DNA of 64,000 nucleotides from a virus. The translations under genes and the position numbers were made by a program. Positions 670-40,433 of this stretch are shown here, in pieces; the stretch's first letter is position 1; each line of letters starts with the position of its first letter. The stretch is taken from positions 1 to 64,000 of IMG/VR virus record IMGVR_UViG_3300009182_000043. One strand, written 5' to 3'. Under the pieces are notes generated by a model. The model had not been told where the DNA came from. It worked only from the letters and a program-made list of their open reading frames with translations, and made no database searches.

Positions 670-1872
670 TTATCCATAGTATGCAGATTGTCCTAAAACA
701 ATCCAAGCAGAACTAGTTCTTACTAAGCTAAAGGTAATTACGTCAATTTTAGATGCATTACCAGTTCCAGTAATAGTTGCAATCCATTTGATAGTTTGTG
801 CTACACCGTCAATCTGTACGGCTGTGGGTATATAGGGTGTTGCACCCTGATTAACTAATATAGTAACCATCAACACTCTACTATCGGTAGTTGGGACATT
901 AGTAAAATTGGCAGTAAAATTAGCTGATGGGGTAGTATGATAAAATACTGCGCCAGTACTTAAATCATGCACAACTACTCCAGTTGCGCCGGTCTTAGTT
1001 AATAAAATATCTGCTGATAAACCATAAGAAACAGTACCTGAAACAGTTAAACTTGTAAGTGTACCTAAACTTGTGATATTGGGTTGTGAACTACTATAAA
1101 CTGTGTTAGCAACAATTGCATTTGGTACTTGACTACTTGTATTACTGATATTGATATTTGTAATATTTGCTACGCTTGCAACTAATGTACCAGTAACTGA
1201 TGCATTAGTTGATACAACTTTACTATTTGCAATATCTAATGTAAGAAGACTTGTTCCGGCTAATGTTCCATTATTATTAAATTGAAATTGAGTATTGCTA
1301 CCACCGGCTTGTGCTGTATTGATTGCAGGACCAAACGTCATTACTTCAATTGGCGCAGCATTTGTGGGTGCGGAAGTAAATGTTAATGTTGTCCCGCTAA
1401 TGCTATATGCAGTTTTTTGTTGAGTTACACCACTAACAGTTACTAATGTATAGTTTTTGTTTGTTGGAGTTGTGCTTAATGTATATGTTGTTCCTGAACC
1501 ATTACCAGTAAAACTATCAAATGTTAATCCAGTCAATACACCAACACTGGCTGCATTCCATGATTTAATTTCAATGACAGCGCCAACATCGGGTATACCA
1601 GTAAATGTTACTATGTTTGTTGATAGTGTATATGCTGATTTTAATTGACTTACACCATCAATGTTAATATTGATAAAGTCTGCACCACTTGGGGTAAGAC
1701 TTAGTGTGAATGCTGTGGTAACACCATCACCGGTAAATGTATCAATGTATACACTTAATGAAGGTAATGTAGCAGGATTACGTGTCCAAGAACTATAAGT
1801 ACTGTTGTAGGTATATGTGATACCATTTTGTACCGCTACTTGATTATTTGTTGGACTACTTGGAAATGCCAT
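670..1872 (-). CDS. Tail-fibre protein, 400 aa, with two beta-sandwich modules and a fibre-tip C-terminus
   Basis: The N-terminus (MAFPSSPTNNQVAVQNGITY) is followed by two copies of a module reading roughly [FTGxGxxxxFTLSxTPxxxxxxxVxxxGVxQxKxxYxxSxxxxTFxxxP], at about residues 43-105 and 117-180. The same module ends the 328-aa fibre protein and lies near the end of the 910-aa one. The middle has the GSNTQFQFNNNG and ITSLGTLTSLTVSG repeats of this island. The last 120 residues (TGVVVHDLSTGAVFYHTTPS through AWIVLGQSAYYG) form a compact C-terminal domain of the kind found at phage fibre tips. A TATAAATA late-promoter box lies 16 nt upstream of the ATG, inside the gap to the next fibre gene. Function as a virion adhesin is inferred from composition and neighbours. 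Confidence 0.8.
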   Translation of the reverse strand: MAFPSSPTNNQVAVQNGITYTYNSTYSSWTRNPATLPSLSVYIDTFTGDGVTTAFTLSLTPSGADFININIDGVSQLKSAYTLSTNIVTFTGIPDVGAVIEIKSWNAASVGVLTGLTFDSFTGNGSGTTYTLSTTPTNKNYTLVTVSGVTQQKTAYSISGTTLTFTSAPTNAAPIEVMTFGPAINTAQAGGSNTQFQFNNNGTLAGTSLLTLDIANSKVVSTNASVTGTLVASVANITNINISNTSSQVPNAIVANTVYSSSQPNITSLGTLTSLTVSGTVSYGLSADILLTKTGATGVVVHDLSTGAVFYHTTPSANFTANFTNVPTTDSRVLMVTILVNQGATPYIPTAVQIDGVAQTIKWIATITGTGNASKIDVITFSLVRTSSAWIVLGQSAYYG

Positions 1873-8577: not shown

Positions 8578-9564
8578 TTAACTCAACCCTAAAGTTGTGA
8601 CTTCAACTAGTGCTCCGTTAGGGGGTGCAGAACTAAATGTAAGTATTGCCCCGCTTACACTATATGAACTCTTTGGCTGCATAACACCTTGCACTACTGC
8701 AAATGTATAATTTTTGCTAGTAGGTGTAGCTGATAAGGTAAATGCAACAGTAGTACCGTCACCTGTATACTCATCTACTGCGCTATCTAAATGTGAAGTA
8801 TCTGCGGACCAACTTAGATTACCAGCTCCGTCTGTTTTTAATAGATAACCAGCACTACCACCAGTAATATGTAGATTACTAATATTTCCTAAACTTACAT
8901 TAGCACCACTAAATGCTGTGTTACCGGATACGCTTAGATTAACTAATGTACCTGTACTTGTAATATTTGGTTGTGCCGCAGTTGTTACTGTTGCGGCAGT
9001 ACTAGCAGATACACTAGTTAACTGACTACCATTACCAAAATATACGTTAGCACGTACATTACCGTATGAGTTGAATGTTACTATTTCACTTGTAACACTT
9101 ACATTACTACCAAATGCAAACTCAGCATTTGAGTTATCCCAACCCATGAATGCGTCTACTGCTTGGGTAGTATAGTAATGTAAAAGTTGACCACGGTCTT
9201 TGCTATCATTTGAACTTAATGCGGCTGCATTTGCTCCGCCACCTTGTTCAATTATTGGATCTTTTACGTATATATTTGTTACGTTAGTGTATTCAGTTGC
9301 ACCATTAACCGTTATATTACCGGTAATAACTGCATCACCGGTTAATGTTAATAAATTAGTTGCACTGTTGAATGTAAAATTAGCACTTGCACTTAATACA
9401 TTGGCAGTATTAAATTGCACTTGTGTGTTGCTACCGGCAGCCCCAACACTTCCACCACTGGAAATTTGACTATCAACATAGTTTTTTGTAGCCGCATCGG
9501 AAGCAATTGAAGGGTCAGAAATATTCTTCAGTTGCGTTGGGGATGGGAATGATAATGATGCCAT
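8578..9564 (-). CDS. Tail-fibre protein, 328 aa, possibly C-terminally truncated
   Basis: The N-terminus contains ISDPSIASDAATKNYVDSQI, a segment common at the base of phage fibres, followed by GSNTQVQFNTANV. One [DPIIEQGGG...DRGQLLHYY...AFMGWDNSN...FGSNVSVTSE] module sits at about residues 98-183. Then come ITSTGTLVNLSVSG and [GYLLKTDGAGNLSW] units and a terminal [YTGDGTTVAFTLSATPTSKN...APPNGALVEVTTLG] beta module. Its ATG is 1 nt from the stop of the 806-aa gene, indicating coupling. It stops at TAA 8578-8580, but the frame continues with 18 plausible tip residues, so the original C-terminus may have been longer. Function is inferred from modules and neighbours. Confidence 0.8.
   Translation of the reverse strand: MASLSFPSPTQLKNISDPSIASDAATKNYVDSQISSGGSVGAAGSNTQVQFNTANVLSASANFTFNSATNLLTLTGDAVITGNITVNGATEYTNVTNIYVKDPIIEQGGGANAAALSSNDSKDRGQLLHYYTTQAVDAFMGWDNSNAEFAFGSNVSVTSEIVTFNSYGNVRANVYFGNGSQLTSVSASTAATVTTAAQPNITSTGTLVNLSVSGNTAFSGANVSLGNISNLHITGGSAGYLLKTDGAGNLSWSADTSHLDSAVDEYTGDGTTVAFTLSATPTSKNYTFAVVQGVMQPKSSYSVSGAILTFSSAPPNGALVEVTTLGLS
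9135..9210. repeat. Near-identical DNA segment shared with 4516-4591
   Basis: This is the partner copy of the 76-nt segment in the 1272-aa fibre gene. The two differences seen by eye are a G/A in the GTAGT(G/A)TAG stretch and an A/G in CCACG(A/G)TCT. Confidence 0.75.
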
Positions 9565-12012: not shown

Positions 12013-12246
12013 TTATGTTATTCCAGATACTTCGTCAAAAACTCCGGAAATTTTTAGTACACCCGTATTTAGCTGTTGCATGGCCTTACTATTTTCGGTG
12101 CCTGTGTATTCATCCAACGTATAAGCAAACACCCCATTAGGGGTGATGCTTATATTTGCTTGGCTGATTTCGCTGAACCCTATACTGTTGTTTTTATCAC
12201 AATATAGGTTTCCTGTGTTACCCAATCTTGCCGCAATTGTAGCCAT
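12013..12246 (-). CDS. Small virion-associated protein, 77 aa; LamG-less paralogue of the 315-aa protein
   Basis: This small protein aligns end to end with the two flanks of the 315-aa LamG protein at 16625-17572. TIAARLGNTGNLY matches TIGARLKNDGTLY. The next stretch pairs [IGFSEIS...GVFAYTLDE] with [TGFDEVT...NIFAGELDE]. The C-terminus pairs AMQQLNTGVLKISGVFDE with AMKQFKNGKLLVQNEFDE. What is missing is the roughly 230-residue lectin-like domain. It has a good GGAGA ribosome site and lies between two fibre genes with 10-26 nt gaps, so it is a real gene. Its role is unknown; a minimal scaffold into which an adhesive domain has been inserted in the paralogue is the simplest reading. Confidence 0.75.
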   Translation of the reverse strand: MATIAARLGNTGNLYCDKNNSIGFSEISQANISITPNGVFAYTLDEYTGTENSKAMQQLNTGVLKISGVFDEVSGIT

Positions 12247-12257
12247 AACATCTCCAA

Positions 12258-15200
12258 TTAATTGAAGATGAAGTCTAAACTACCTGATGTTGAGTTGTAT
12301 TGAATATATGCCGCACTTGCTGTGTTACCACTACCAACTGCAAAACCAACTGCCTTACCAGCATAAACATTACCTTCAGCAGAGATACCGCCCTTAGTGT
12401 GAATAGCACTACCAACAGCCGCACTAGTTGCATCAGTTGTACTGTTTGCAGTAATATAGTTGTTAGAAGTAATATTGTTTGCAGTGATATTACCTGATGC
12501 TTCAACAACACCTACTACGTTAGCCCCTGTTCCAGAAACTGTAAGAATTGTAGAACCTGCAATTGTTGTTACAGCATCACCGCCAGAAGTTGCAATGCTT
12601 ACATTACTTGTACCATTAACAATTCTAGTTGTATCGTTAGATACGAAACTTAAATTACCTGCGCCATCTGTCTGAATAATTTGACCAGCAGTACCACCAG
12701 AGATATAAACATTACCAATTGCATTTAAGTTTGATGTTCCACTAACTGCCAATGATGTCAATGTACCAACGCTTGTTACGTTTGGTTGAGATGCTGTTGT
12801 CAATGTACCTGTTAAGTAAGTAGCCTTAACTGTACCTGAATTAGCATAAACATTACCGGCTATTACACTACCAGTAACGTTAGCATTAGTACTTGCATTG
12901 ATTGTAATTACGTTAGCATAATCAGTTGTCAATGTATTTGTACCTGCGTTAAATGCTAAGTTAGCACTATCAGTTAATCGGTCAGTAGAAACTTCAGCAA
13001 ACGTGATGCGTCCACCTGTCAAATCAGTAACAATAACGTTGGCTGCTGTAAGTGTGCTAGTAACGTTTGCAGTACCTGTAACTTTCAATTCGTTACTTGC
13101 AAATGTCAAATTAGCATCATCTTTCAATGACTTATCACTATCAACAAACGGAACACGTGTAGCTGTTAATCTTGTAACAATAACATTGGCTGCGTTTGCA
13201 GTGCCAGAAAGTTCAACATTACCAACAGTTAATTTTCCTGATCCAAATGTGAATGCAGAGTCATCAACTAATTTACCACTTGTACTTGCATATGTAACAC
13301 GACCAGAAGTCAGTGTAGAAACAAATACGTTAGAAGTTTCAACTTTACCAGTAATGTTTGCATTACCATCAACTGTAAAGACATTACCTGTTGGGTTAAA
13401 TGTAAACTTAGCACTTGATGCAAAATTATTATCAGTGTTGAACTGGATATAATTATTTGAGCCAGATGCTTGTTGCAAGTCCCAAGCTTGACCGTTTGCA
13501 TAGAACAAATTATCTGTTAAGATACCATTACCTGCGCCAAAGCCAGAAATATTTCCTGAAACAGACAAGCTTGTCAATGTTCCAACACTTGTTATGTTTG
13601 GTTGTGATGCTGTTGTTAATGTACCTGTTAAATAGTCAGTCTTAACATATCCACCTGTACCAACATTTACACTTAAGTTTCCACCAGTATATAGTAAATT
13701 AGAGCCGTCATTAGCTAAGTCACCGTATGTACTATACGATTTAACTGTACCTGTACCTGTACCAACACCTGAAGCAGTAAATCGTGTACCCACAGTATTA
13801 TTGGCTGCTCCTATTAATGTATAGTCAGTAGTACCAGCTGATACGATTTCGTAAGTTCTGCCTGCCATAATAGCAGTAGCATTTATAGTAGAACCATAAT
13901 GAATTGTTACATTAGTAGCAAATTGAACGGAACCATTTGAACCAGCTACTTTAATGTTACCGGAAATATTACCAGTAACGTTACCTGTTAAGTCACCGAC
14001 GAATGAGCTTCCAGCTCCTAGTGTAACGTTACCGTTACTGAATACAACACCACCAAAGTTAGCATTGTATGCAAAGATATTGCTTAATGTTAAGTCAGCA
14101 AGGTTTGCGGCTACTTGGGCAGCATTTGAACCATAATCAACTACATTATTAACTACTGATACGTTTTGTGCTAAAACGAATGTTGAGTTAGAATTATCCC
14201 AACCCATGAACAAGTCTTTATTCACACCACTAGTACGTGTATGCATGAATAAACCACGATCATAAGCATCATTGCTTGCTAGTGCCGCTCCGTTTGCGCC
14301 GCCACCTAATTCAAATAACGGGTCAGTTAGCTGAGAAACTGTAGTGTTAACGCTTGTTGTTGTACCTGTAACTGTTAAGTTACCAGTAATAACTGTATTA
14401 CCTGCATTCAAGTTACCAGTTACATTTGCATAACCAGTAAGAGTAAGATTACCCGTAGCATTTACATCTACTACGTTAGCAATGTTGGCAAATAGATAAT
14501 TAACACCGCTAATGTTACCACCAGAACCGCCACCAGTAACAATGTTACCGTTAACTGTTAGGTTACCAGAACCGTATGTTAAGTCTGAACTGTCTACTAA
14601 TTTGTGATTTGAATCAGAGAATACAAGGCGTGTATCAGTTAAATTTCGTACAACAGCATTACCTACGTTTGCATTAGCATTTAACTGTAAGCTGTCAGTA
14701 GTTAAAACATTACCTGTTGTGTTGAATGATAGATTTGCACTTGCATCAAAGTTATTATTTGTGTTAAACTGAATTGCTCCGTTACTACCTTGAGCTTGTT
14801 GTAAGTCCCAAGCTGATCCATTAGCATATAACAAATTATCTGTTTTGATATTAGTTGCGGCTACGTTACCTGTAACAGTTAATACGTTACCATCAAATGT
14901 TAGATTTGCGCTATCTTGTAATTTACCAGATAAACCTGCAAGTGTAACACGACCAGATGTTAGATTATTTGAAGTTACATTGGCTGCAACTAGTGCACCA
15001 GTTAAATCAACATTACCAACTTCTAGTTTAGAACCAGCTGTTGTAAATTTGAATGTGCTATCATCAGTTAATGACTTGTCTGTATCAACAAACGGAACAC
15101 GTGTTGATGTCAAGCTTGTAACAATAACTTCGGCTGCATTTGCAGTACCACCCAATGTAGCGTTGAAAACTGACAATGTATTGCTTGTTGAATTGAATGT

Positions 15201-16586
15201 TAAGTTAGCACTGTCAATCAATGCTTTTGTTGCGTTAGCAAAAGGAATGCGTGTATCACCCAAGCTAGTAACAATAACATTGGCTGCATTCGCTGTACCA
15301 GATAATGTAGCATTAGCAACTGTTAATGTACTTGTACCTGTAGTATATTTGAATGTTGATTCACCAACTAATCTACTATCACCATTTAAGAATGGAATTT
15401 GATCCTGAGACAAATCTCTAACAATAGCACTACCAACGTTTGCTGTACCAACGTTACCAGATCCAGTTGCAATCATTGATTTTACGTTTGCAGTACCATC
15501 AGAAAAGATAGCTGCATTTGAATTGACTTTTAATGCGCCAGTACCAACAGTCAAATTACCATTATTATTAAGTGTAACATTACCACCGGAAGTTTCTAAA
15601 ACTACACTAGATGAAGTTAGATTAGCGTATGAAGTTCCACCGTTTAATATAGCAGTAGTGGTAGCTAAAATTGAAAGATTTCCACCTTTAATGTTACCAA
15701 TAGCGGCAGTCATGTTGATGTTGCCTTCAATGTTTGCCGCGCCACCTAATACTAAAGCAGTTGTGCTTACTGTATTGCTTGATTTGTCAAACGTGAAACC
15801 TGCTGTTGCGTTTGTAGTACCACCATCGTTAAATCCTACTTGTGTATTCGCACCAGGAGCACTTGTAGTACCGCTAACAGTTCCGTGAATTGTTCCGCCA
15901 ACCCATAAATCACCAGCAATACCTGTACCACCACCAACAATCAATGCACCTGTTGTTGTGCTTGTACTTGATGCTGTATTAGCCGCATTAATTTGACCTG
16001 TAGCTGTAATTGTACCATTTGTTGTAATAACTACATTACCTGTAGTACTAGCATTACCAATTTGTAAACCAGTTAAATTACCAAGACTTGTTATGTTACC
16101 CTGTGATGCACCAGTAACTATACCTGCATATGCTGAATTGTTTGCATTTGATACTGTACCAGTAACATTAGCACCAGTAATATTTGCTAGTGTGTCACCT
16201 TCACCTATAAAGTGAGATGCTTTTACGTTACCATATGTTGCTACAGTGATGTTACCATCTTTTCCAGCACCTTCGGTAGCAGATGCACCAAATTCAAATT
16301 GCCCATTAGTTGTGTGCCAACCCATGAATGCTTTAGTATCCGCACTACCATTCCAGTAGTGCATTAAAATACCACGTTCTTTTCCATCATCAGTTGTTAG
16401 TGCCGCTCCGTTTGCGCCTGTGCCCAATTCAAAGATTGGATCTTGTAATTGAGTAACTGTACTGTTAACTGACGTTGTAGTACCAGTAACTACTAAGTTA
16501 CCGCTAATTGTAATATTGCCTACGGTTAGTGTTTGGTCGACTTGTGCATCACCATAAATTCTAGTACCGTCTTTTAATTTTGCCAT
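12258..16586 (-). CDS. Very large tail-fibre protein, 1442 aa
   Basis: It has the N-terminal anchor MAKLKDGTRIYGDAQVD and two divergent [DP(I/L)FELGxGANGAAL] modules at about residues 45-127 and 752-825. Between and after them are about eight copies of a 24-residue motif reading roughly RxPFxDxxKSLxDDSxFxF, each behind an ANVIVTxLT-type strand. Around residues 890-950 there is an inserted unit [AIMAGRTYEIVSAGTTDYTLIGA...GTGTGTV], a motif I recognise from other phage structural proteins. The C-terminus (NSTTDATSAAVGSAIHTKGG through SGSLDFIFN) is paralogous to the end of the 175-aa gene. A clear AAAGGA ribosome site precedes the ATG. No catalytic motif is visible. It is most likely a long fibre or fibre-shaft protein. 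Confidence 0.8.
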   Translation of the reverse strand: MAKLKDGTRIYGDAQVDQTLTVGNITISGNLVVTGTTTSVNSTVTQLQDPIFELGTGANGAALTTDDGKERGILMHYWNGSADTKAFMGWHTTNGQFEFGASATEGAGKDGNITVATYGNVKASHFIGEGDTLANITGANVTGTVSNANNSAYAGIVTGASQGNITSLGNLTGLQIGNASTTGNVVITTNGTITATGQINAANTASSTSTTTGALIVGGGTGIAGDLWVGGTIHGTVSGTTSAPGANTQVGFNDGGTTNATAGFTFDKSSNTVSTTALVLGGAANIEGNINMTAAIGNIKGGNLSILATTTAILNGGTSYANLTSSSVVLETSGGNVTLNNNGNLTVGTGALKVNSNAAIFSDGTANVKSMIATGSGNVGTANVGSAIVRDLSQDQIPFLNGDSRLVGESTFKYTTGTSTLTVANATLSGTANAANVIVTSLGDTRIPFANATKALIDSANLTFNSTSNTLSVFNATLGGTANAAEVIVTSLTSTRVPFVDTDKSLTDDSTFKFTTAGSKLEVGNVDLTGALVAANVTSNNLTSGRVTLAGLSGKLQDSANLTFDGNVLTVTGNVAATNIKTDNLLYANGSAWDLQQAQGSNGAIQFNTNNNFDASANLSFNTTGNVLTTDSLQLNANANVGNAVVRNLTDTRLVFSDSNHKLVDSSDLTYGSGNLTVNGNIVTGGGSGGNISGVNYLFANIANVVDVNATGNLTLTGYANVTGNLNAGNTVITGNLTVTGTTTSVNTTVSQLTDPLFELGGGANGAALASNDAYDRGLFMHTRTSGVNKDLFMGWDNSNSTFVLAQNVSVVNNVVDYGSNAAQVAANLADLTLSNIFAYNANFGGVVFSNGNVTLGAGSSFVGDLTGNVTGNISGNIKVAGSNGSVQFATNVTIHYGSTINATAIMAGRTYEIVSAGTTDYTLIGAANNTVGTRFTASGVGTGTGTVKSYSTYGDLANDGSNLLYTGGNLSVNVGTGGYVKTDYLTGTLTTASQPNITSVGTLTSLSVSGNISGFGAGNGILTDNLFYANGQAWDLQQASGSNNYIQFNTDNNFASSAKFTFNPTGNVFTVDGNANITGKVETSNVFVSTLTSGRVTYASTSGKLVDDSAFTFGSGKLTVGNVELSGTANAANVIVTRLTATRVPFVDSDKSLKDDANLTFASNELKVTGTANVTSTLTAANVIVTDLTGGRITFAEVSTDRLTDSANLAFNAGTNTLTTDYANVITINASTNANVTGSVIAGNVYANSGTVKATYLTGTLTTASQPNVTSVGTLTSLAVSGTSNLNAIGNVYISGGTAGQIIQTDGAGNLSFVSNDTTRIVNGTSNVSIATSGGDAVTTIAGSTILTVSGTGANVVGVVEASGNITANNITSNNYITANSTTDATSAAVGSAIHTKGGISAEGNVYAGKAVGFAVGSGNTASAAYIQYNSTSGSLDFIFN

Positions 16587-16624
16587 TTTATTTTTCCTTT
16601 GTTTCTAAAAGTTAGTTTAGTGAT

Positions 16625-17572
16625 TTACACTATACCCGTATGTTCGTCAAACTCATTTTGAACTAGCAACTTACCATTTTTAAATTGTTTCATTGCTCCG
16701 TTGAATGTTGTTGATGATGGTGAACCCGCATCAAATGTTGCACTACCGTTATTTGTAACTGATTGTGTACTATCTGAACTATCAGTTACTAAACTACCTG
16801 AATCTATTACTTTTAATAATAGCTTCGTACTTGATCCAGAAATAGCACTGATGTTTACTCCTGAATTTTGTATTTTTTGTAATGGGTTGATTGGTGTGCT
16901 GAAAGTATTAGTATACACTGCTAGACCTTTTACAATTCTAAATTGTGTAATCTTGCCTACAAAATAACCATCCTTAACACCTGCTGTTGCATTTTGACCA
17001 ACATCGCTTAAATCTATTTCGCCGCCAATTGCTAATGCACGTGATGAAGTTGAATCATATGGTGTGTTATCTACTATTCTTGCTAAACCATTGATATAAA
17101 CTTTAGCTACACCACTGCTTTTAACTAAAGCAATATGTGTCCACGCATTAGCATGAAAAGAATTTGATCCGCTACCAATTGGTGAACCAGAACCTTTCCA
17201 ATAGTATACTTGAGTTCCCATTATTTCAACGTTATCTCCGTCTGGGAAACACCATAGACGTTGATATGCAGATGAGGTAGAATAAAACCATCCTTCGATT
17301 GTAAAATCGCTTGTACCAAACTGAAAATCTCCGGTACCTGCCAATGAAAGATACTGAGTTGTACCATCAAATAAAACAGATCCGCCGGAAGGTTGTCCTG
17401 AAGGCAATGTAATTTCGTCTAATTCACCAGCAAAGATATTTGTCTTTGTAACTTTGTGATTAGAATCAGTAACTTCATCAAATCCGGTACTTAAATCACC
17501 AGGTGTAATACCAGCAGTGTATAGTGTACCATCATTTTTTAATCTTGCTCCAATTGTTGTCGGTGCGCTCAT
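16625..17572 (-). CDS. LamG/concanavalin-A-like lectin-domain fibre protein, 315 aa
   Basis: Residues about 62-235 form a LamG/Con A-like fold: SVLFDGTTQYLSLAGTGDFQ, FTIEGWFYSTS, AWTHIALVKSSGVAKVYING and GKITQFRIVKGLAVYTN are the usual strand motifs. The flanks are not LamG. The first 57 and last 25 residues match the complete 77-aa protein at 12013-12246, so the lectin domain looks inserted into a small pre-existing scaffold. LamG domains on phage virions commonly bind glycans, so a carbohydrate-binding adhesin is a fair inference. It sits between two fibre genes with short gaps and a GGGA ribosome site. Confidence 0.85.
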   Translation of the reverse strand: MSAPTTIGARLKNDGTLYTAGITPGDLSTGFDEVTDSNHKVTKTNIFAGELDEITLPSGQPSGGSVLFDGTTQYLSLAGTGDFQFGTSDFTIEGWFYSTSSAYQRLWCFPDGDNVEIMGTQVYYWKGSGSPIGSGSNSFHANAWTHIALVKSSGVAKVYINGLARIVDNTPYDSTSSRALAIGGEIDLSDVGQNATAGVKDGYFVGKITQFRIVKGLAVYTNTFSTPINPLQKIQNSGVNISAISGSSTKLLLKVIDSGSLVTDSSDSTQSVTNNGSATFDAGSPSSTTFNGAMKQFKNGKLLVQNEFDEHTGIV

Positions 17573-17584
17573 GTTTTTCCCTAA

Positions 17585-18112
17585 TTATTTAAACTGAAAT
17601 TCAAAGCTATCAACTCCTGAGTTGTAACCTAAACTTCCTTTTGGTGTTGTTCCGCCGCCAGTTAAGTTAATGTTACCACCTACAGTTAAATCTTTAGCTA
17701 TCCCTACACCCCCTGAAGTGACTATTGAGCCAGTTATTGTGGACGTAGAGTCTGTAGTACTATTTATCGTAAGTGTATTATTTATCGATATAGCGTTGAA
17801 ATTTGCCCCATCTGCAACAATATTTCCCAAAAAAGTAGCGGTTGTTGCGTTTGCATTTATCAAATACCCATTAATATCAATATTTCCCGAAAGTGAAATA
17901 TTTTGAAATCTATTGGCTGCATTACCAATAGAATAAGTAGCATTTGCGTTTGGAATTAAATTACTAGCAACATAGTCTTTGACTTTAAGAACAGAAATAT
18001 TAGCTAGGTTAGTAACCGTAATACTAGCTACATTAGCGTTGCCTGAGGCTGCGTCTAAGCTTATATTACCAGTTTTAATCCCAGTCTTAACGTTAAAATT
18101 CTTATATGTCAT
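17585..18112 (-). CDS. Short tail-fibre protein, 175 aa
   Basis: It starts MTYKNFNVKTGIKTGNISLD and contains the island's beta-repeat style (ANVASITVTNLANISVL, YSIGNAANRFQNISLSGN). The segment ASNLIPNANATYSIGNAANRF is close to SNLIPITNSTYDLGSDNFKW in the 756-aa fibre. The C-terminus, with NSTTDSTSTITGSIVTSGGV and a final SFEFQFK, parallels the end of the 1442-aa fibre. It is about one eighth the length of that paralogue and may be a reduced fibre or a fibre-foot subunit. No other domain is seen. Confidence 0.7.
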   Translation of the reverse strand: MTYKNFNVKTGIKTGNISLDAASGNANVASITVTNLANISVLKVKDYVASNLIPNANATYSIGNAANRFQNISLSGNIDINGYLINANATTATFLGNIVADGANFNAISINNTLTINSTTDSTSTITGSIVTSGGVGIAKDLTVGGNINLTGGGTTPKGSLGYNSGVDSFEFQFK

Positions 18113-18125
18113 TTTCTTATTCTTA

Positions 18126-19568
18126 TCAATCTTTAATGTAAGTAGCCAAATAATTCAACACTGTGGTAGTTGCACCAATTCTAGAAGCATATAAATTCAC
18201 ATTTCCACCAGCTATACTTGTACTCACGCTTACTATATCAGTGTCGTCGGAACTAATATATCCATAAACAGTAATATAACTATCTGTACCATCATGTATA
18301 ACTAACGCTTCTAGTGCTTCATAAGTCGTGCTATTTGACACTTTTATTATATATTTAGCAGTTCTATAAGTTGTTATTGGGAACGTATCAATTAAAGTTT
18401 CGGTTGTAATTGTGATGTTTGCGCTGTTACCAACAATGCTTCCCATTGCTAGTGTACCAGGAACTTTTACAGTTGTATTTGATGTTCCAATTGTAATATT
18501 GCTTATTGCGGAAGAACCAATTCCTGTAAATATTCCGGCTGCTCCGCTTGTTGTGTTTGCGGCAATTGTTGCATTACCAAGACTTATTGCACCGTAACTA
18601 GCATCTCCGCTTGAATTAATATTAACTGCATTTAGATTAGCAGTACCACTAAGTTTAGTAGCGTCTAATCCACTTAGATAGTATCCGTTACCTAAATAAT
18701 AATTAGTGCTGATGTCTATATTTCCACCAACTGCTAATACGTTTGAGGTATCATTAAATGTGAATTTAGAACTATGTGTAGCTGTATTTGAACTAGAGAT
18801 ATAAATTACATGAGTATTACCACTACTAAAATGTAGATTACCGTATAAATCATCTGCTACTAGATTTCCGCTAATAGTAACATTACCAGTACCATTTGGA
18901 TCAATAACGATACTATCATTTGTGTTTACACTACTGATAGTATTACCAACAATGTTCAAATTACCTAAATTAGCATTTGAAATAGTAGAACTAGATGTAG
19001 TACCAAGACCAATATCTCCGGTGTATCTTGCACCAGTGATATAAACGCTCTTACCAGTGACACCGGTACCAATTCCTGTTGGAATGTTTGTACCAATAAA
19101 GTGTAGTACACCTGACTGATAATCAAAGTACCATTGGTCATCAAGAGCAGTTGGACTTGTTACACCTGCAGCCGTAATCTTGTTTGCAGAAATTGTTACT
19201 TGAGTTGTTTTATTAGAACCAGTTATTCCTGAGTTAGCAATATAAACACTAACAATATAGTCAGCACCAAACTCAGGACTTATCCAGTCAGTTAAATTTG
19301 TTTTCCAAGTTCTGTTATCTGCGGCACTATTATCTTCTGTACATTCAACTGTAGTTGCACCTGAATAAACAGTAACAACCGTACTTGATGTAGCAATACT
19401 AGCTGAGATTAAATCTGAACGTTGCCAAATTCTATCGCCGCGAATTAATAATGGGCTAGAAATGCTTTCTTCAAAACCCTGCTTGGTTGTTCCCAAGTCA
19501 GTCTTAGTTTTACCGTAGGCTATTTTCTTCCAAAGATAATCAACTTTTTGTGAGTCTGAAATAGCCAT
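18126..19568 (-). CDS. Virion structural/fibre protein, 480 aa
   Basis: The N-terminus (KVDYLWKKIAYGKTKTD, then ESISSPLLIRGDRIWQRSDL) is a recurring start in T4-like aquatic phage structural proteins and differs from the other anchors in this island. About 170 residues of non-repetitive sequence with a [WYFDYQSGVLHFIGTNIP] segment follow, then fibre repeats. The last 90 residues (TYRTAKYIIKVSNSTTYEAL through ATTVLNYLATYIKD) resemble the C-termini of the 756-aa and 226-aa genes. Its ATG overlaps the stop of the 1990-aa gene by one base (TAATG), so translation is coupled. A connector-like role between tail and fibre is possible but not shown. Confidence 0.7.
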   Translation of the reverse strand: MAISDSQKVDYLWKKIAYGKTKTDLGTTKQGFEESISSPLLIRGDRIWQRSDLISASIATSSTVVTVYSGATTVECTEDNSAADNRTWKTNLTDWISPEFGADYIVSVYIANSGITGSNKTTQVTISANKITAAGVTSPTALDDQWYFDYQSGVLHFIGTNIPTGIGTGVTGKSVYITGARYTGDIGLGTTSSSTISNANLGNLNIVGNTISSVNTNDSIVIDPNGTGNVTISGNLVADDLYGNLHFSSGNTHVIYISSSNTATHSSKFTFNDTSNVLAVGGNIDISTNYYLGNGYYLSGLDATKLSGTANLNAVNINSSGDASYGAISLGNATIAANTTSGAAGIFTGIGSSAISNITIGTSNTTVKVPGTLAMGSIVGNSANITITTETLIDTFPITTYRTAKYIIKVSNSTTYEALEALVIHDGTDSYITVYGYISSDDTDIVSVSTSIAGGNVNLYASRIGATTTVLNYLATYIKD

Positions 19569-22500
19569 TAACTAAAGCTCCATGATGTAATATAATCACC
19601 TGATGCTAGTGCAATACTAAACAGTACTTGATTACCTGAATTCCCTGGTGAGCTTGTACTACCTTCACCAAACGTTATTTTATACGTTGCCCCTGATATT
19701 ACTGAACCTGTTGGTACTACTGAACCGTCAGCACATCCGCTATCGTTTGCACCCGCTACCCCTGCACCAAAATATGCAACGTGTGCATCTAACCATCCGT
19801 TAGTTGCATATGGTAGTGAATCTGTTACACCCGGTACTGCAAAGCGCAAGCCAGAAATCTTACCTGTAATTGTCACACTGAAGCTACTCTTACTCGCTCT
19901 TACAAATGCACCTCTGAAATACTGTGTACCACTACGTCCAGTAGACAAATTAGGTCCTACTGGTAAGTAACCAGTTGACAAGTCAGTTACAAAATTCTTT
20001 AATTGATTGAAACGAACAATTGCTTCATCAGTACCTGCTACTGTTTGAGCGCCAGACCATAGACCACTTGTGTAATAGTTTGTTGCTGTTACATAAGCCG
20101 GTGTAGCGCCTGATGCACTAGCAATTACAATACGTTTGGCAGCGTTGCTATTTGGTACAGCACCTACAGGGATAGTACAACTGATATTATCCTCTACAAA
20201 TCCGCTAGGAGTAGCATTGAATACTTGAATCTTTTTAGTATGTGTAGCATAAGCACTTGAACCATTAACATTAGTTGCCAAAAACTTGATGGTTTGAACT
20301 GCGGCTACTCCAGCGACACCACCAATGTTAATTGTCTGACTACCAATTGTATATTGATTGCTACTTGTATTACCTGTATTAGCGTTTGGTATTCCACCTG
20401 ACAAGAATGTACTAGCGCCATCTAAACTACTATAAGTCTTAGTCTGTGATGCAATTACGTTTCCTGTAGTGCTTTCATCATTTGTGCCGGCTTCAATTTG
20501 GAATGGTGTAGTTGTATTTTGATATGTTTGACCAATCCAGTTATAGATATTAGCACCAGTTAAAGTAATTGTTGGGCTACCTGTATTGTAGTATGGAATA
20601 CCTGAGACATAACGATAAGTTCCGTTTGTAGCATTGCTGATTGTGGCAACTGATACATCAACTGTTGGCACACTTGTTACATCATCTTTTACAAATTCAA
20701 CAATGTTTGTGTTACCAGTTGCTGTATGACTTATTTTGAAATTGTTTACCCCTACTGACAGTACAGAGTTTGTTTTAGATATTTTTGCTTTGAAGCCTTT
20801 ATATAAACTAGGGCTATAAATTGATGCTCCAAATGTAGTTGTTGCACCTGTAGCATCCAATAAATTATAGTCACTTTCTGATGATAACACCAATGACTGA
20901 TTGGTTCCAGAATTATCACTAGAAGTTAATGTAATGTTACCATCTTCTGAGCCATTAATAAATGCACGTAAGTATCCACTGTCAGCATTGTATGCAAATG
21001 TTGACATTACTACAGTTTCTACCGGAGTGCCTGTAGTCACACGACTAATGCTTGATCCTGCTGTTGTAGATACTGTTCCACCTGTGTTATTTGCAAAATT
21101 GACTGCAAGATATGGGCTTGTTCCAACACTAGACTGGAAAGCAATAGTCTTACTGCTTAGTCCGTTTGGTGCAGAAATACTTGGGTTATAGATTTTAATT
21201 GATGAGGTGCTGTTTGGACCTGTTGCAATATAAGAAGGTGTCGCTGTACTATGACTTGTTAATGTCAATGTAATTGTTTTAGTTCCTGTACCAGAATTTT
21301 GTCCAGTAGCATAAACATGGCTCTTACGTCCGCCACCTACACCACCGGCTACACTATCACTACTGATTGTGTCAGTATTTCCATCGCCCCAATTAATTGT
21401 ATACGTTACAGTTGCACCTGAAGTATTTGTAGTTGTGTTCTCCAAATAGAATGTATCACCCTCGCTAACATACAGTGTGCTACCAGTTAATGCACTACCA
21501 CCTATACTACCTCTATACAAACTGAATCCAACGATTGGATTAGCGGTATATATGATAATGTAGCCGGTGCGAGTAAAGCTTGCTTCACTACCCTTACCAG
21601 AACCACCATTATTGTATGCTCTAACTGTTACAGTGAATGGACTACCTGAATTAGTAGAATAAGTATGAGTTGGTGTAGTAGATGTAGCACCTGTAGTTTG
21701 ACTGCCATCACCCCAATCAATATCATAGCGATTTGGATTACCTACGCTTGTAATTGTCAGTGTAACTAGTGTTCCTGCACCACCTGCTGTTGGGCTAGCA
21801 GTAAAGCTAACACTCTTTACATAAGTATTGTTTCGCACATTTTCAAGTGCTTCGTTTAAATCGTCAATTGCGTCAGTCACTTTAGTCTCTGTTGTCCATG
21901 ATGTTATTGAACCCGGTGATACTAAGTCGGTATCTATAGGACCTCCTAAAGGTATTGTATTACCTACACTACCCGAAATTCCACCAGTAACACTAATAGT
22001 ACCATTAATTATAATATTCCCAGTAATATTTGCATCTTGTTGTACTTCTAAATTTCCTACTCTTAAATTACCATACTCATTGAATGTTACTACGTTGTCA
22101 GTTACTGATACGTTACTGCCCAATGCAAATTCTGCATTACTAGTATCCCAACCTATAAATGCATCAACTGGTGTTGTGGTATAATTATGAATTAGTGTAC
22201 CACGATCCATATTATTGTTTGATACTAATGGATTACCGTTTTGTCCGCCACCTATTTCAGTTATTGGGTCTGTTACGTAAGTTACAGTAGTTTGAATATA
22301 AGTTACTGCACCCTTAACATCTAAATTACCTTGAATTGTTGCATCTCCGGATACTGATATGTTATTTGCAGAAATATTACCCTGAGCATCACGCAATACA
22401 AGTGTATCACCGGTAGCTGAGGTGTTTGAATTAATAAAGCCGGTACTAACATCAACCCATGCATACCCAAGATTTTGCGGATCTTTAAAATATTGATAAA

Positions 22501-25500
22501 CTTTAGAAGTATCTGTGTCTAACCACATATCCCCTAATTTAGCATTGGTTGGTGCAGTTGCTTGTGTTGCAAAGGTAGTAACTACTTTTCCGTCACGTGT
22601 AAGATTATTACCTACACTTAAATTACTTGTAATTTCAACTGAATTTGATGTCTTGTCAAACAATACTGTAGATGTTTTTAATGTTCCGCCATCGTTATAC
22701 AATATTGCTTTGTTAGCACCAGCAACTAATATATCTCCAGAAAAACTACCAGACATATGTGTAGCAATGAAACTTGATGCTGTTACACTTCCAGTAACCA
22801 CCAAGTTTCCACCAATTGACTCATCTCCAAGTACATCTAAACTAACTAGTGATCCAACACTAGTAATATTTGGCTGTGCATTGGTTGAGACTGTGTTAGC
22901 AACAGTAGCCTGTGTTGCTAAATCAGAAGTGTCTGAATGACCAGCATTATCAGCATATACGGCATTTGCTACTTTACCTAAAACATTTCCGCCTGTAATA
23001 TTTGATATATTACTACCGTCACCCGCTAGATAATCGGCTGATAGTAATTCACCAACAGTTAAATTCACTGCAATTGAAGCAGAATCATTTACTATCAAAC
23101 TTACTAAAGTGCCTACACTAGTAATATTTGGTTGACTACTTGCAGTTACATGCAATGCATAATTAGCAACGTTAGCTTGCGCCGTATTGTCAGCAAACAC
23201 AGCATTTGCTACTTTATCTGTAACGTTTGGACCATAAATATTATATAAACCTGATGCTTCACCTGCAACATTACCTACAGTTAACATATTGTTAACTATA
23301 CCGCTATTAGCAGTGAACGTATCTAGCGTAGTAGGTCCATTAACGTTTAAGAAGTTTAATATACCAATTTCGTTAATGTTTGGTTGAATGTTATCGTGAA
23401 CCACATTAGCAATATAAGCACTGTCTGCTGTTAAACTTGATCCTGCAAAATTTGCATAATTTGCATTTGCTACATCACCTTGTATGTTAGCACCGGAGAT
23501 GTTTCCAATTTGATAACCGTCACCAACTAAGTAAATACCGGTGATTGTGTCACTAGCAGAAATATTAGAAACGCTTATGTTTCCTGATACTGTTAAATCA
23601 GTTAATGTGCCGACACTAGTAATATTTGGTTGATAATTGGTAGTAACTGTTCCGGCACGTAATGCAGTGTTTGAAATGTTTGCAAAGTTTGCAGTATTTG
23701 CTTGTTTGGCTAAATTAACGTTACCAACAACATTAGCACCTTGAATGTTTGCGAGATATGTAGCATTACCTGAAAAGAAATTAGCAATTGCTATATTACC
23801 TAATACGGCATTTCCAGCAGTTAAATTACCTGAAACATTTAATAAGGTAAGCAACCCAACAGCAGTAATGTTTGGTTGATCTCCAATTACGACATTACCA
23901 GCATAGTTGGCATAGTTGGCATTTTCAGCACTATCAGAGAAAATTGCATTAGCTACTTTTCCAGTAATATTTGAACCAGTAACACTAGTTAAATTGCTTC
24001 CATCACCAATAAAATAATTACCACGGATTTCGTCCCCAAGGTTTGCGCTACCAGAAGTTATTACTCCAGAAATTGTTAAACTTGTTAGTGTACCAACACT
24101 AGTGATATTTGATTGAGCACCTTGAGTTACATAGCCTGCTAAACCTGCATTGTCAGAAAAGATTGCATTTGCGACTTTACCAGTAACATTTGCTCCGGTT
24201 ATATTACTTAAATTGCCACCCTCACCAATAATATGAGTGGCAATAATATGGTCACCTAGACTTGCGTTTTGTGATGTAATTGGTCCATCAACTGTTAAAC
24301 TGGTCAATGTACCCAAACTAGTAATGTTTGATTGATCGGCTGCTGTTACATGTCCTGCTAATAAACTTGTTCCTGCACTAACAGAATAAGTAGCATTTGA
24401 TACTTCACCTATTACGTTTCCACCAGTAATTCCAAATAATCTGTAACCATTACCAACAAAGAAATTAGCGGTTACTACATTACCAAGACTTGGGTTAACT
24501 GTAGGACTTACTGCTAAACTAGTTAGTGTTCCAAAGCTTCTAATATTTGGCTGTGCTGAATCATTAACTGTATTTGCAACTCCTGCGATACCTGCACTAT
24601 TTGCATAAACTGCATTCGATACAAAGCCAGTAACATTTGCACCAGTAACATTTGATAGTCTACTACCGTCACCAATAAAATAACTAGCATGTAAATTGCC
24701 GTATTCATGTATAATTAAATTGTTTGCAACTAAACTTACATTACTTGCAACAGAAAATTCTTGATTTGTATCATCCCAACCAACAAACGCATCAACTGCA
24801 TTATTTGTGAAATAATGCATTACTGTACCGCGAGCATTATAATCATCTGCTTGAGTTAGTACACCACCTGTTGGGTTTGCACCTAATTGAAGAATTGGAT
24901 CTTCAATACGTATTGTTTGAACATCTGCATAAATTGCATTACCTTCAACAATAAGATTACCAACAATAGTAGCATCACCTCCAACAATTAGTGATGAGTT
25001 AGCAATTAATGCACCGGTAACTGTTAGATTTGCTAAATTACCAACTTGATTAATGTTTGGTTGATAATTACCAATAACAGTAGTTGACGTATTAGATTGG
25101 GTACTGTTTAATGTAACCAGTGCATAGTGTGCATAGTTAGCATTTGCGACTTCGCCAAATACATTTGCCCCTGCAATATAAGATATTCCTGCACCGTTAC
25201 CAGCAAATGATGTTGCATTAAGTTGACCAGTAACATTGTTATATGTTAGTGTAGCATCACCACTAAATGCACCATTATTATTAAACTGAATGGATTGATT
25301 GCTGCCGCCGGGTGTTGTTAGTGCCGCATCTTTAAAGAATAGTGTTCCAAACCCATCAGTAGCAACTACTTGGTCAGGATTTCCACCTTGAATACTAATG
25401 TTACTAATACTACCAAGATTTGCAAAGTTACTAACTTCTAGGGAGTTGGCTATTATATTACCATTGCTGTCAACAACTGCTATTGTGGGTTCTAGTCCTA

Positions 25501-25540
25501 CTGAGAACCCTGATTGCGAATTAAACTTTTTTAATGCCAT
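19568..25540 (-). CDS. Giant tail-fibre protein, 1990 aa, with PKD-like domains and receptor-binding tip
   Basis: The N-terminus [FNSQSGFSVGLEPTIAVVDSNGNI] matches the 756- and 226-aa genes, a third anchor class. Residues about 30-1200 are tandem units with ITSVGTLTSLTV and GDGSNLTSVTGSNITGKV, including two [DPI...RGTxxHxYTTxxVDAFxGWDxxN] modules (about 210-290 and 1090-1160). After a [TKVTDAIDDLNEALENVRNN] hinge, residues about 1240-1445 hold PKD-like Ig domains (DIDWGDGS, TINWGDGN, HTYST). The C-terminal 200 residues, with YFRGAFVRASKSSFSVTITG and GWLDAHVAYFGAGVAG, resemble large receptor-binding tips of aquatic T4-like fibres. At 1990 residues it is the longest complete gene in the window. 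A role as major long fibre is inferred. Confidence 0.85.
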   Translation of the reverse strand: MALKKFNSQSGFSVGLEPTIAVVDSNGNIIANSLEVSNFANLGSISNISIQGGNPDQVVATDGFGTLFFKDAALTTPGGSNQSIQFNNNGAFSGDATLTYNNVTGQLNATSFAGNGAGISYIAGANVFGEVANANYAHYALVTLNSTQSNTSTTVIGNYQPNINQVGNLANLTVTGALIANSSLIVGGDATIVGNLIVEGNAIYADVQTIRIEDPILQLGANPTGGVLTQADDYNARGTVMHYFTNNAVDAFVGWDDTNQEFSVASNVSLVANNLIIHEYGNLHASYFIGDGSRLSNVTGANVTGFVSNAVYANSAGIAGVANTVNDSAQPNIRSFGTLTSLAVSPTVNPSLGNVVTANFFVGNGYRLFGITGGNVIGEVSNATYSVSAGTSLLAGHVTAADQSNITSLGTLTSLTVDGPITSQNASLGDHIIATHIIGEGGNLSNITGANVTGKVANAIFSDNAGLAGYVTQGAQSNITSVGTLTSLTISGVITSGSANLGDEIRGNYFIGDGSNLTSVTGSNITGKVANAIFSDSAENANYANYAGNVVIGDQPNITAVGLLTLLNVSGNLTAGNAVLGNIAIANFFSGNATYLANIQGANVVGNVNLAKQANTANFANISNTALRAGTVTTNYQPNITSVGTLTDLTVSGNISVSNISASDTITGIYLVGDGYQIGNISGANIQGDVANANYANFAGSSLTADSAYIANVVHDNIQPNINEIGILNFLNVNGPTTLDTFTANSGIVNNMLTVGNVAGEASGLYNIYGPNVTDKVANAVFADNTAQANVANYALHVTASSQPNITSVGTLVSLIVNDSASIAVNLTVGELLSADYLAGDGSNISNITGGNVLGKVANAVYADNAGHSDTSDLATQATVANTVSTNAQPNITSVGSLVSLDVLGDESIGGNLVVTGSVTASSFIATHMSGSFSGDILVAGANKAILYNDGGTLKTSTVLFDKTSNSVEITSNLSVGNNLTRDGKVVTTFATQATAPTNAKLGDMWLDTDTSKVYQYFKDPQNLGYAWVDVSTGFINSNTSATGDTLVLRDAQGNISANNISVSGDATIQGNLDVKGAVTYIQTTVTYVTDPITEIGGGQNGNPLVSNNNMDRGTLIHNYTTTPVDAFIGWDTSNAEFALGSNVSVTDNVVTFNEYGNLRVGNLEVQQDANITGNIIINGTISVTGGISGSVGNTIPLGGPIDTDLVSPGSITSWTTETKVTDAIDDLNEALENVRNNTYVKSVSFTASPTAGGAGTLVTLTITSVGNPNRYDIDWGDGSQTTGATSTTPTHTYSTNSGSPFTVTVRAYNNGGSGKGSEASFTRTGYIIIYTANPIVGFSLYRGSIGGSALTGSTLYVSEGDTFYLENTTTNTSGATVTYTINWGDGNTDTISSDSVAGGVGGGRKSHVYATGQNSGTGTKTITLTLTSHSTATPSYIATGPNSTSSIKIYNPSISAPNGLSSKTIAFQSSVGTSPYLAVNFANNTGGTVSTTAGSSISRVTTGTPVETVVMSTFAYNADSGYLRAFINGSEDGNITLTSSDNSGTNQSLVLSSESDYNLLDATGATTTFGASIYSPSLYKGFKAKISKTNSVLSVGVNNFKISHTATGNTNIVEFVKDDVTSVPTVDVSVATISNATNGTYRYVSGIPYYNTGSPTITLTGANIYNWIGQTYQNTTTPFQIEAGTNDESTTGNVIASQTKTYSSLDGASTFLSGGIPNANTGNTSSNQYTIGSQTINIGGVAGVAAVQTIKFLATNVNGSSAYATHTKKIQVFNATPSGFVEDNISCTIPVGAVPNSNAAKRIVIASASGATPAYVTATNYYTSGLWSGAQTVAGTDEAIVRFNQLKNFVTDLSTGYLPVGPNLSTGRSGTQYFRGAFVRASKSSFSVTITGKISGLRFAVPGVTDSLPYATNGWLDAHVAYFGAGVAGANDSGCADGSVVPTGSVISGATYKITFGEGSTSSPGNSGNQVLFSIALASGDYITSWSFS

Positions 25541-39602: not shown

Positions 39603-40433
39603 ATGAGTATTGAAAACAACCCGTTAAAGCAGTATTTCCGCCGCCCAAGTATCTATTTAAAGTTACCTAGCGGGGGATTAGGGTATGAGTTTGGTGTTAT
39701 TGACATGCCCGAAACAAAAGAATTACCAGTGTATCCAATGACAGCAATTGATGAGATTACTAGCAAAACCCCAGACGCATTGTATAACGGATCCGCTGTT
39801 ACAGATATTATTAAAAGCTGTGTACCCGCGATAAAAGAGCCATGGAAAATAACCACAGTTGACTTAGATGCTATTTTAGTTGCAATACGTATTGCAACCA
39901 ATGGTAGCGAAATGGATATGGAAACTACATGCCCTAGTTGCAGTGAGGAAAGCAAATATGGAGTTAATCTAAGTATTGTATTGAATAGTTTCAAAGCAGG
40001 GGACTACGAATCAGGATTGACTCTCAATGATTTAAAAATTAAATTTAAACCATTAAATTATAAATCATTGTCTCAAAGTAGTGTGAGACAATTTGAAATT
40101 CAAAAAGCTATTATGTCAATTGACAGAATGGAAGATGGTCCTGATCGTGAAGCTAAATCAATGGATCTGTTAAAAGTTATAACCGATTCTACGTTAGATG
40201 TATTAGTCAACACGATTGATTATATTGCTACACCCGACGCAATTGTAAATGACCGTATTTTCATCGTTGAGTTTTTGCAAAACACAGACAAAAAGACATT
40301 TGAAACTATTAAAGACTATAGTGTCAATTTACGTGAAAGCACACAAACTAAACCCCTACAAATCAAATGCATACATTGTTCACATGAGTATGAACAATTA
40401 TTTACATTGAACGTAAGCGATTTTTTCGCTTAA
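39603..40433 (+). CDS. gp26: Baseplate hub subunit gp26 (T4 baseplate family)
   Basis: The protein (276 aa) belongs to the T4 gp26-type baseplate family: [IYLKLPSGGLGYEFGVIDMP] near the N-terminus, then DAILVAIRIATNGSEMDMET and CPSC (Cys110, Cys113). A second pair CIHC (Cys256, Cys259) near the C-terminus suggests a zinc-binding cluster. T4 gp26 is 208 aa and takes part in hub assembly. A good AGGAGA ribosome site precedes the ATG. It is followed at 26 nt by the gp51-like gene, as in related phages. The divergent upstream gap contains late-promoter-like boxes. Confidence 0.88.
   Translation: MSIENNPLKQYFRRPSIYLKLPSGGLGYEFGVIDMPETKELPVYPMTAIDEITSKTPDALYNGSAVTDIIKSCVPAIKEPWKITTVDLDAILVAIRIATNGSEMDMETTCPSCSEESKYGVNLSIVLNSFKAGDYESGLTLNDLKIKFKPLNYKSLSQSSVRQFEIQKAIMSIDRMEDGPDREAKSMDLLKVITDSTLDVLVNTIDYIATPDAIVNDRIFIVEFLQNTDKKTFETIKDYSVNLRESTQTKPLQIKCIHCSHEYEQLFTLNVSDFFA

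Follow-up and report, generated by a model that had tools for sequence, protein, structure and literature searches.

Does a small viral protein serve as a scaffold into which a lectin domain has been inserted, and, if it does, what could such a scaffold contribute to the virion? The question is raised by two genes in the 64,000-nucleotide stretch of DNA analysed here (the window), which is part of an 83-kb record of an uncultured virus. Among its genes are T4-like ones for the head (portal, protease, major head protein) and for the baseplate (wedge and hub); the major head protein is closest to that of Vibrio phage 2.275.O (68%) and to those of the jumbo phages Phosso and PA5oct. The gene pair is found where genes for long fibre-like proteins are clustered, behind those of the head. 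The original prediction, made from the letters of the window, was that the 77-residue product of one gene aligns with both ends of the 315-residue LamG protein encoded by the other, that the pair represents before and after versions of a domain insertion, and that the small scaffold may be a virion attachment unit accepting cargo domains.

A repeat scaffold with and without a LamG domain

The predicted alignment is borne out at both ends. The N-terminal flank of the 315-residue protein shows 42% identity to the 77-residue protein over 50 residues (blastp, E=1.5e-6), with none of 2000 shuffles scoring as high, and for the C-terminal flank a single one of 2000 shuffles did so. The joined flanks align at 40% identity over 80 columns (phmmer, E=2e-10), and a profile built from orthologues of the 77-residue protein matches both flanks at E=3e-18, clearly above the background level that would have spoken against the idea; chance similarity is ruled out by the shuffles, blastp and phmmer. 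The central part of the larger protein is a member of the Laminin_G_3 family (Pfam PF13385; E=2e-12, 47.7 bits against a cut-off of 27.6) by both its profile score and its jelly-roll model. AlphaFold2 places residues 63-285 at a pLDDT of about 90, save for a few loops, and residues 1-62 and 286-315 below 50, which agrees accurately with the insert of about residues 60-290 originally proposed. A Foldseek search with the LamG model recovered pentraxin and LamG structures, PTX3 (9k6n) at E=2.5e-8. Structure prediction of the 77-residue protein, also suggested at the outset, gave a poor AlphaFold2 model (pLDDT 57, pTM 0.25), which shows no fold and therefore ruled out a fold search with this protein.

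Alignment of relatives shows that the scaffold is built of three degenerate repeats, each about 22 residues long and closing with [F/L]DExT/S, the consensus lying near xRLxSTGxLxVSGxFDEVT (FDE repeats; Table 1). Two near-identical copies, LSGVPQRLLSTGTLQVSNYFDEVN, occur in a 295-residue protein of relative L127. This delineation is based on relatives with clearer repeats rather than on the window clade, in which repeats 1 and 2 score weakly by profile, repeat 1 most weakly, and pairwise profile comparison of the three repeats is suggestive only. Because the scaffold is a tandem of repeats, with LamG placed between the second and the third, no single compact fold is interrupted by the domain. 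The repeat profile detects three units in most complete proteins, and their positions can be followed across cargo of hundreds of residues: 22, 239 and 447 in L115; 3, 274 and 533 in the 557-residue protein of L127; 9, 243 and 726 in L164; and 8, 470 and 494 in L141. Exactly three repeats is a strong tendency, seen rather than predicted beforehand, and not a proven rule, because in L050 (2092 residues) and a 1300-residue protein of L127 most units fall below profile significance, one or two being clear by profile and the rest read by eye.

Table 1. Scaffold and fibre genes of the window, with the parts of the two scaffold proteins
Feature	Position	Strand	Basis
77-residue plain scaffold gene, three FDE repeats, without cargo	12013..12246	-	orthologues and HMM catalogue
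Repeat 1 of the 77-residue protein, residues 2-28, ends ...GFSEIS	12163..12243	-	alignments and repeat profiles
Repeat 2 of the 77-residue protein, residues 29-49, ends ...TLDEYTG	12100..12162	-	repeat profiles and alignments
Repeat 3 of the 77-residue protein, residues 54-77, ends ...GVFDEVSGIT	12016..12087	-	repeat profiles and alignments
1442-residue fibre gene directly upstream of the plain scaffold, C-terminus ...YIQYNSTSGSLDFIFN	12258..16586	-	
315-residue scaffold gene, LamG between repeats 2 and 3	16625..17572	-	Pfam, orthologue profile
Repeat 3 of the 315-residue protein, residues 293-315	16628..16696	-	flank alignment and profiles
LamG / pentraxin-like cargo domain of the 315-residue protein, residues 63-285	16718..17386	-	Pfam PF13385, AlphaFold2, Foldseek
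Repeats 1 and 2 of the 315-residue protein, residues 6-56	17405..17557	-	flank alignment and profiles
175-residue short fibre gene directly upstream of the LamG scaffold, C-terminus ...LGYNSGVDSFEFQFK	17585..18112	-	

The two forms have travelled together. In all 13 IMG/VR contigs with an orthologue of the 77-residue protein that were found first, the LamG paralogue lies about 5 kb upstream, and the complete contexts examined in the window clade hold both forms. A tree of cargo-free scaffold sequences, only 77 columns long and with many weak forks, supports the branches at issue: the 19 plain forms of the window clade group together (95/98), as do the 22 LamG forms (96/97), and these groups are sister clades (83/88). 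As these sister clades are co-inherited across the relatives of the window, the duplication and the insertion are old: this lineage went through a single duplication and a single LamG insertion (or a single loss), well before the phages of today separated. A recent local event, in which the LamG gene arose within this genome as a new copy of its direct ancestor, the 77-residue gene, might be read from the proximity of the two genes and their common flanks; but the separate, supported sister clades contradict it, the orthologues of each form are closer to one another than the two window paralogues are, and we reject it as having almost no chance of being right. Thus, the original proposal of a small scaffold that exists both bare and with a lectin inserted stands, and the reading of the two genes as a recent before-and-after pair does not.

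Cargo and insertion slots among relatives

A search for the same scaffold with other inserted domains, another of the initial suggestions, recovered several cargo types in IMG/VR relatives. The three repeats are kept, and cargo is found in linker 1, in linker 2, in both, or after repeat 3 (Table 2). It comprises LamG, a domain related to the head spike fibre of RcGTA, a glycine-rich domain, small unknown domains, or nothing at all. The guess that the scaffold is an attachment unit taking cargo is thereby strengthened for the cargo, found in the same and in other slots; attachment itself we infer.

Table 2. Cargo arrangements of the three-repeat scaffold
Arrangement	Where found
Plain scaffold, no cargo	L106, L111, L113, L116-L118, L172, L190
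LamG in linker 2	window and 21 orthologues
LamG in linker 1	L114, L141
LamG in both linkers	L127 (557 residues), L164, L181
LamG after repeat 3 (C-terminal)	L102/L046, L104, L112, L170
RcGTA-spike-like domain in linker 2	L107
RcGTA-spike-like domain in both linkers	L115, L179
Small unknown domain in linker 2	L184
Other C-terminal cargo, small unknown domain	L103
Glycine-rich PF21722 (Gly_rich_2) domain after repeat 3	L186, L188

Scaffolds that are 76-88% identical hold different cargo or none: those of L112 (LamG) and L123 (no cargo) are 82% identical, and those of L107 and L115 88%. It is such relatives, more than the window pair, that are the real before-and-after comparisons. The cargo of L115 is homologous to the RcGTA head spike fibre Rcc01080 (E=1.4e-25). 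In RcGTA this fibre is anchored by its N-terminal residues 2-10 to the capsid spike base, and the tagged fibre binds better to capsulated cells (PMC10218006); in the scaffold relatives the homologous domain is instead held between FDE repeats, behind a fibre gene. By analogy with this capsule-dependent binding, the cargo classes fit a role in cell attachment. The LamG / pentraxin-like fold is likewise that of many tblastn matches among cyanophage structural proteins (PF13385), though what these match is the LamG region rather than the three-repeat scaffold.

By sequence comparison, the scaffold itself has no counterpart in Pfam, in PHROGs or among the isolated phages that were searched. The three-repeat part has no Pfam match, the best PHROGs match is at E=0.17 (with none at all for the relative L116), and tblastn of several variants against isolated phages returned nothing even at E<=10. 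FDE repeats are also absent from the inspected regions of S-SKS1, S-PM2, Flavobacterium phage immuto and Vibrio phage 2.275.O. A scan of bacterial and archaeal genome contigs for scaffold relatives found none and thus gave no host clue, and in the open-access literature we found no description of this three-repeat scaffold. Weak PDB profile matches to the photosystem I subunit PsaE (E=0.016), the only ones obtained with the scaffold, were taken as chance.

Two relatives have unusual arrangements. In the 1300-residue protein of L127 (L127:6754-10653) a LamG domain apparently lies inside repeat 1, between its first strand and the FDE motif, and is followed by four RcGTA-spike-like stretches and a second LamG. 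A 516-residue protein of L147 (L147:915-2462), with neither Pfam nor PHROGs matches, has three C-terminal FDE repeats preceded by N-terminal repetitive, beta-helix-like sequence.

A fibre C-terminus upstream of the scaffold

The strongest clue to function, missed in the earlier reading, is the link of the scaffold to the fibre gene upstream. The C-termini of the 175- and 1442-residue fibres of the window are homologous (they score 98, the best of 2000 shuffles 65), and hence the fibre tip and the scaffold were duplicated together, the duplicated unit being one of two genes. A related fibre C-terminus, in forms such as ...YIQFNxxANSLDFIFN, ...INYNxxxxSIDFKFNG and ...YQYYNxxTNSLDTVFG, is encoded by the gene immediately upstream of each scaffold whose context is complete. 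A strict tip pattern occurs at the end of the upstream gene in 53 of 60 contexts, which, coming from related contigs, are not independent trials; the seven missed comprise four near-miss endings, L030, whose upstream gene ends in NSIDFIFN, and two truncated at a contig end.

In a search keyed on the fibre C-terminus, the scaffold was the next gene for 19/19 tip-bearing fibre genes and for 0/80 fibre genes that have the generic fibre repeat in common and lack the tip. The Fisher p of 9e-21 for this association overstates independence, because the pattern was chosen post hoc, a scaffold neighbour supplied the query fibre, and the contigs are related to one another. Of the 19 tip-bearing contigs about nine were new, having been missed by the scaffold searches, and the tip-bearing genes outside the search filter (L173, L174, L185, L187, L205) are also followed by a scaffold. 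In L107, L112-L118 and other relatives, the stop codon of the fibre gene and the start codon of the scaffold gene overlap, TTTGGATAATG (gap -1), which suggests translational coupling; in the window clade there are gaps of about 3-18 nt in place of the overlap.

Possible roles at the fibre tip

In T2-type phages such as S16 and PP01, the gp38 gene comes immediately after that of the long tail fibre, and its product occupies the tip of the gp37 trimer and carries the receptor-binding part (PMC12892980). The scaffold gene is likewise directly downstream of a fibre gene, and we consider it probable that the scaffold acts like this gp38 as a fibre-tip adaptor displaying receptor-binding cargo. The window holds such a two-gene unit twice: a fibre whose C-terminal tip is conserved and, after it, the small three-repeat protein proposed as the adaptor. 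The adaptor would dock on the tip through its repeats and display its cargo, here a LamG lectin predicted to bind a cell-surface glycan, and the plain 77-residue form may be a bare cap or may bind by itself. We infer the tip location and the glycan binding from sequence and gene association. In this lineage the unit was duplicated once, long ago, and a single later insertion placed LamG between repeats 2 and 3 of one copy. A point against the adaptor is the frequency of the plain form, in which no receptor-binding domain can be recognised.

Resemblance to gp38 does not extend to the architecture: gp38 has one attachment domain and a glycine-rich sandwich, whereas the scaffold has three FDE repeats, with cargo of several folds set between them. 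The 77- and 315-residue proteins and the scanned relatives have no match to the GP38 Pfam family, and the poly-glycine type II sandwich is absent from the window proteins. A glycine-rich domain is present in the two relatives L186 and L188, and there it has no PDB sequence match.

Fibres of this kind are usually trimers. More speculatively, the three repeats might dock one on each chain of the trimeric fibre, and one repeat per chain would then be why the repeat count stays at three despite hundreds of residues of cargo in between. Such an arrangement would make the scaffold a natural plug-in socket, in which one chain caps the trimer, with a repeat for each fibre chain and defined slots that lectins and other receptor-binding domains enter, and are exchanged in, time and again, an idea that we put forward only tentatively. 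If true, it would be a distinct, undescribed architecture by which receptor binding is changed and the fibre left unaltered, and a match of three repeats to three chains would be a clear case of internal repetition fitted to oligomer symmetry.

The main rival to the adaptor is a fibre assembly chaperone, which is what gp38 is in T4 itself. The scaffold would then fold the fibre C-terminus and leave, the lectin versions being secondary fusions. Gene adjacency fits this role as well, and a small protein encoded directly after the fibre, in many relatives with overlapping start and stop codons, and not folded confidently by AlphaFold2 on its own, is what might be expected of it. However, a protein that departs gains nothing from lectin, RcGTA-spike-like or glycine-rich cargo, and many relatives bear cargo acquired in several independent ways; we therefore regard the chaperone as unlikely. 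Less likely still is a reading of the FDE repeats as a motif used generally in virion proteins for linking or decoration, with operon history as the only reason for their place beside the fibre. Members do sit in virion structural clusters, and gene order can be kept by vertical inheritance, but the association tracks the fibre C-terminal motif rather than fibre genes at large, and it is seen in divergent clades and with each of the two paralogous fibres in the window clade.

How phages can exchange receptor-binding domains and still assemble their fibres is an open question, for which this family offers a small system of near-identical scaffolds with none, one or several unrelated domains in definable slots. 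The conserved fibre C-terminus is a candidate docking sequence for the scaffold, and as a short motif that marks the next gene it could provide a handle on receptor-binding proteins of uncultured T4-like phages.

Some further features of the window may be recorded. A 1990-residue fibre-like protein (19568-25540, minus strand) has, by eye, PKD-like stretches (YDIDWGDGSQTTGATSTTPTHTYS, VTYTINWGDGNTDTI) in its C-terminal half. Two proteins, encoded at 8578-9564 and 670-1872 (minus strand), match phrog_21488, the former also with a sub-threshold DUF4183 match (E=3.5e-4). The coding strand switches at 39603 and 46160; head and fibre genes are on the minus strand and baseplate genes on the plus strand from about 46 kb, and the GC skew changes sign near 48 kb.
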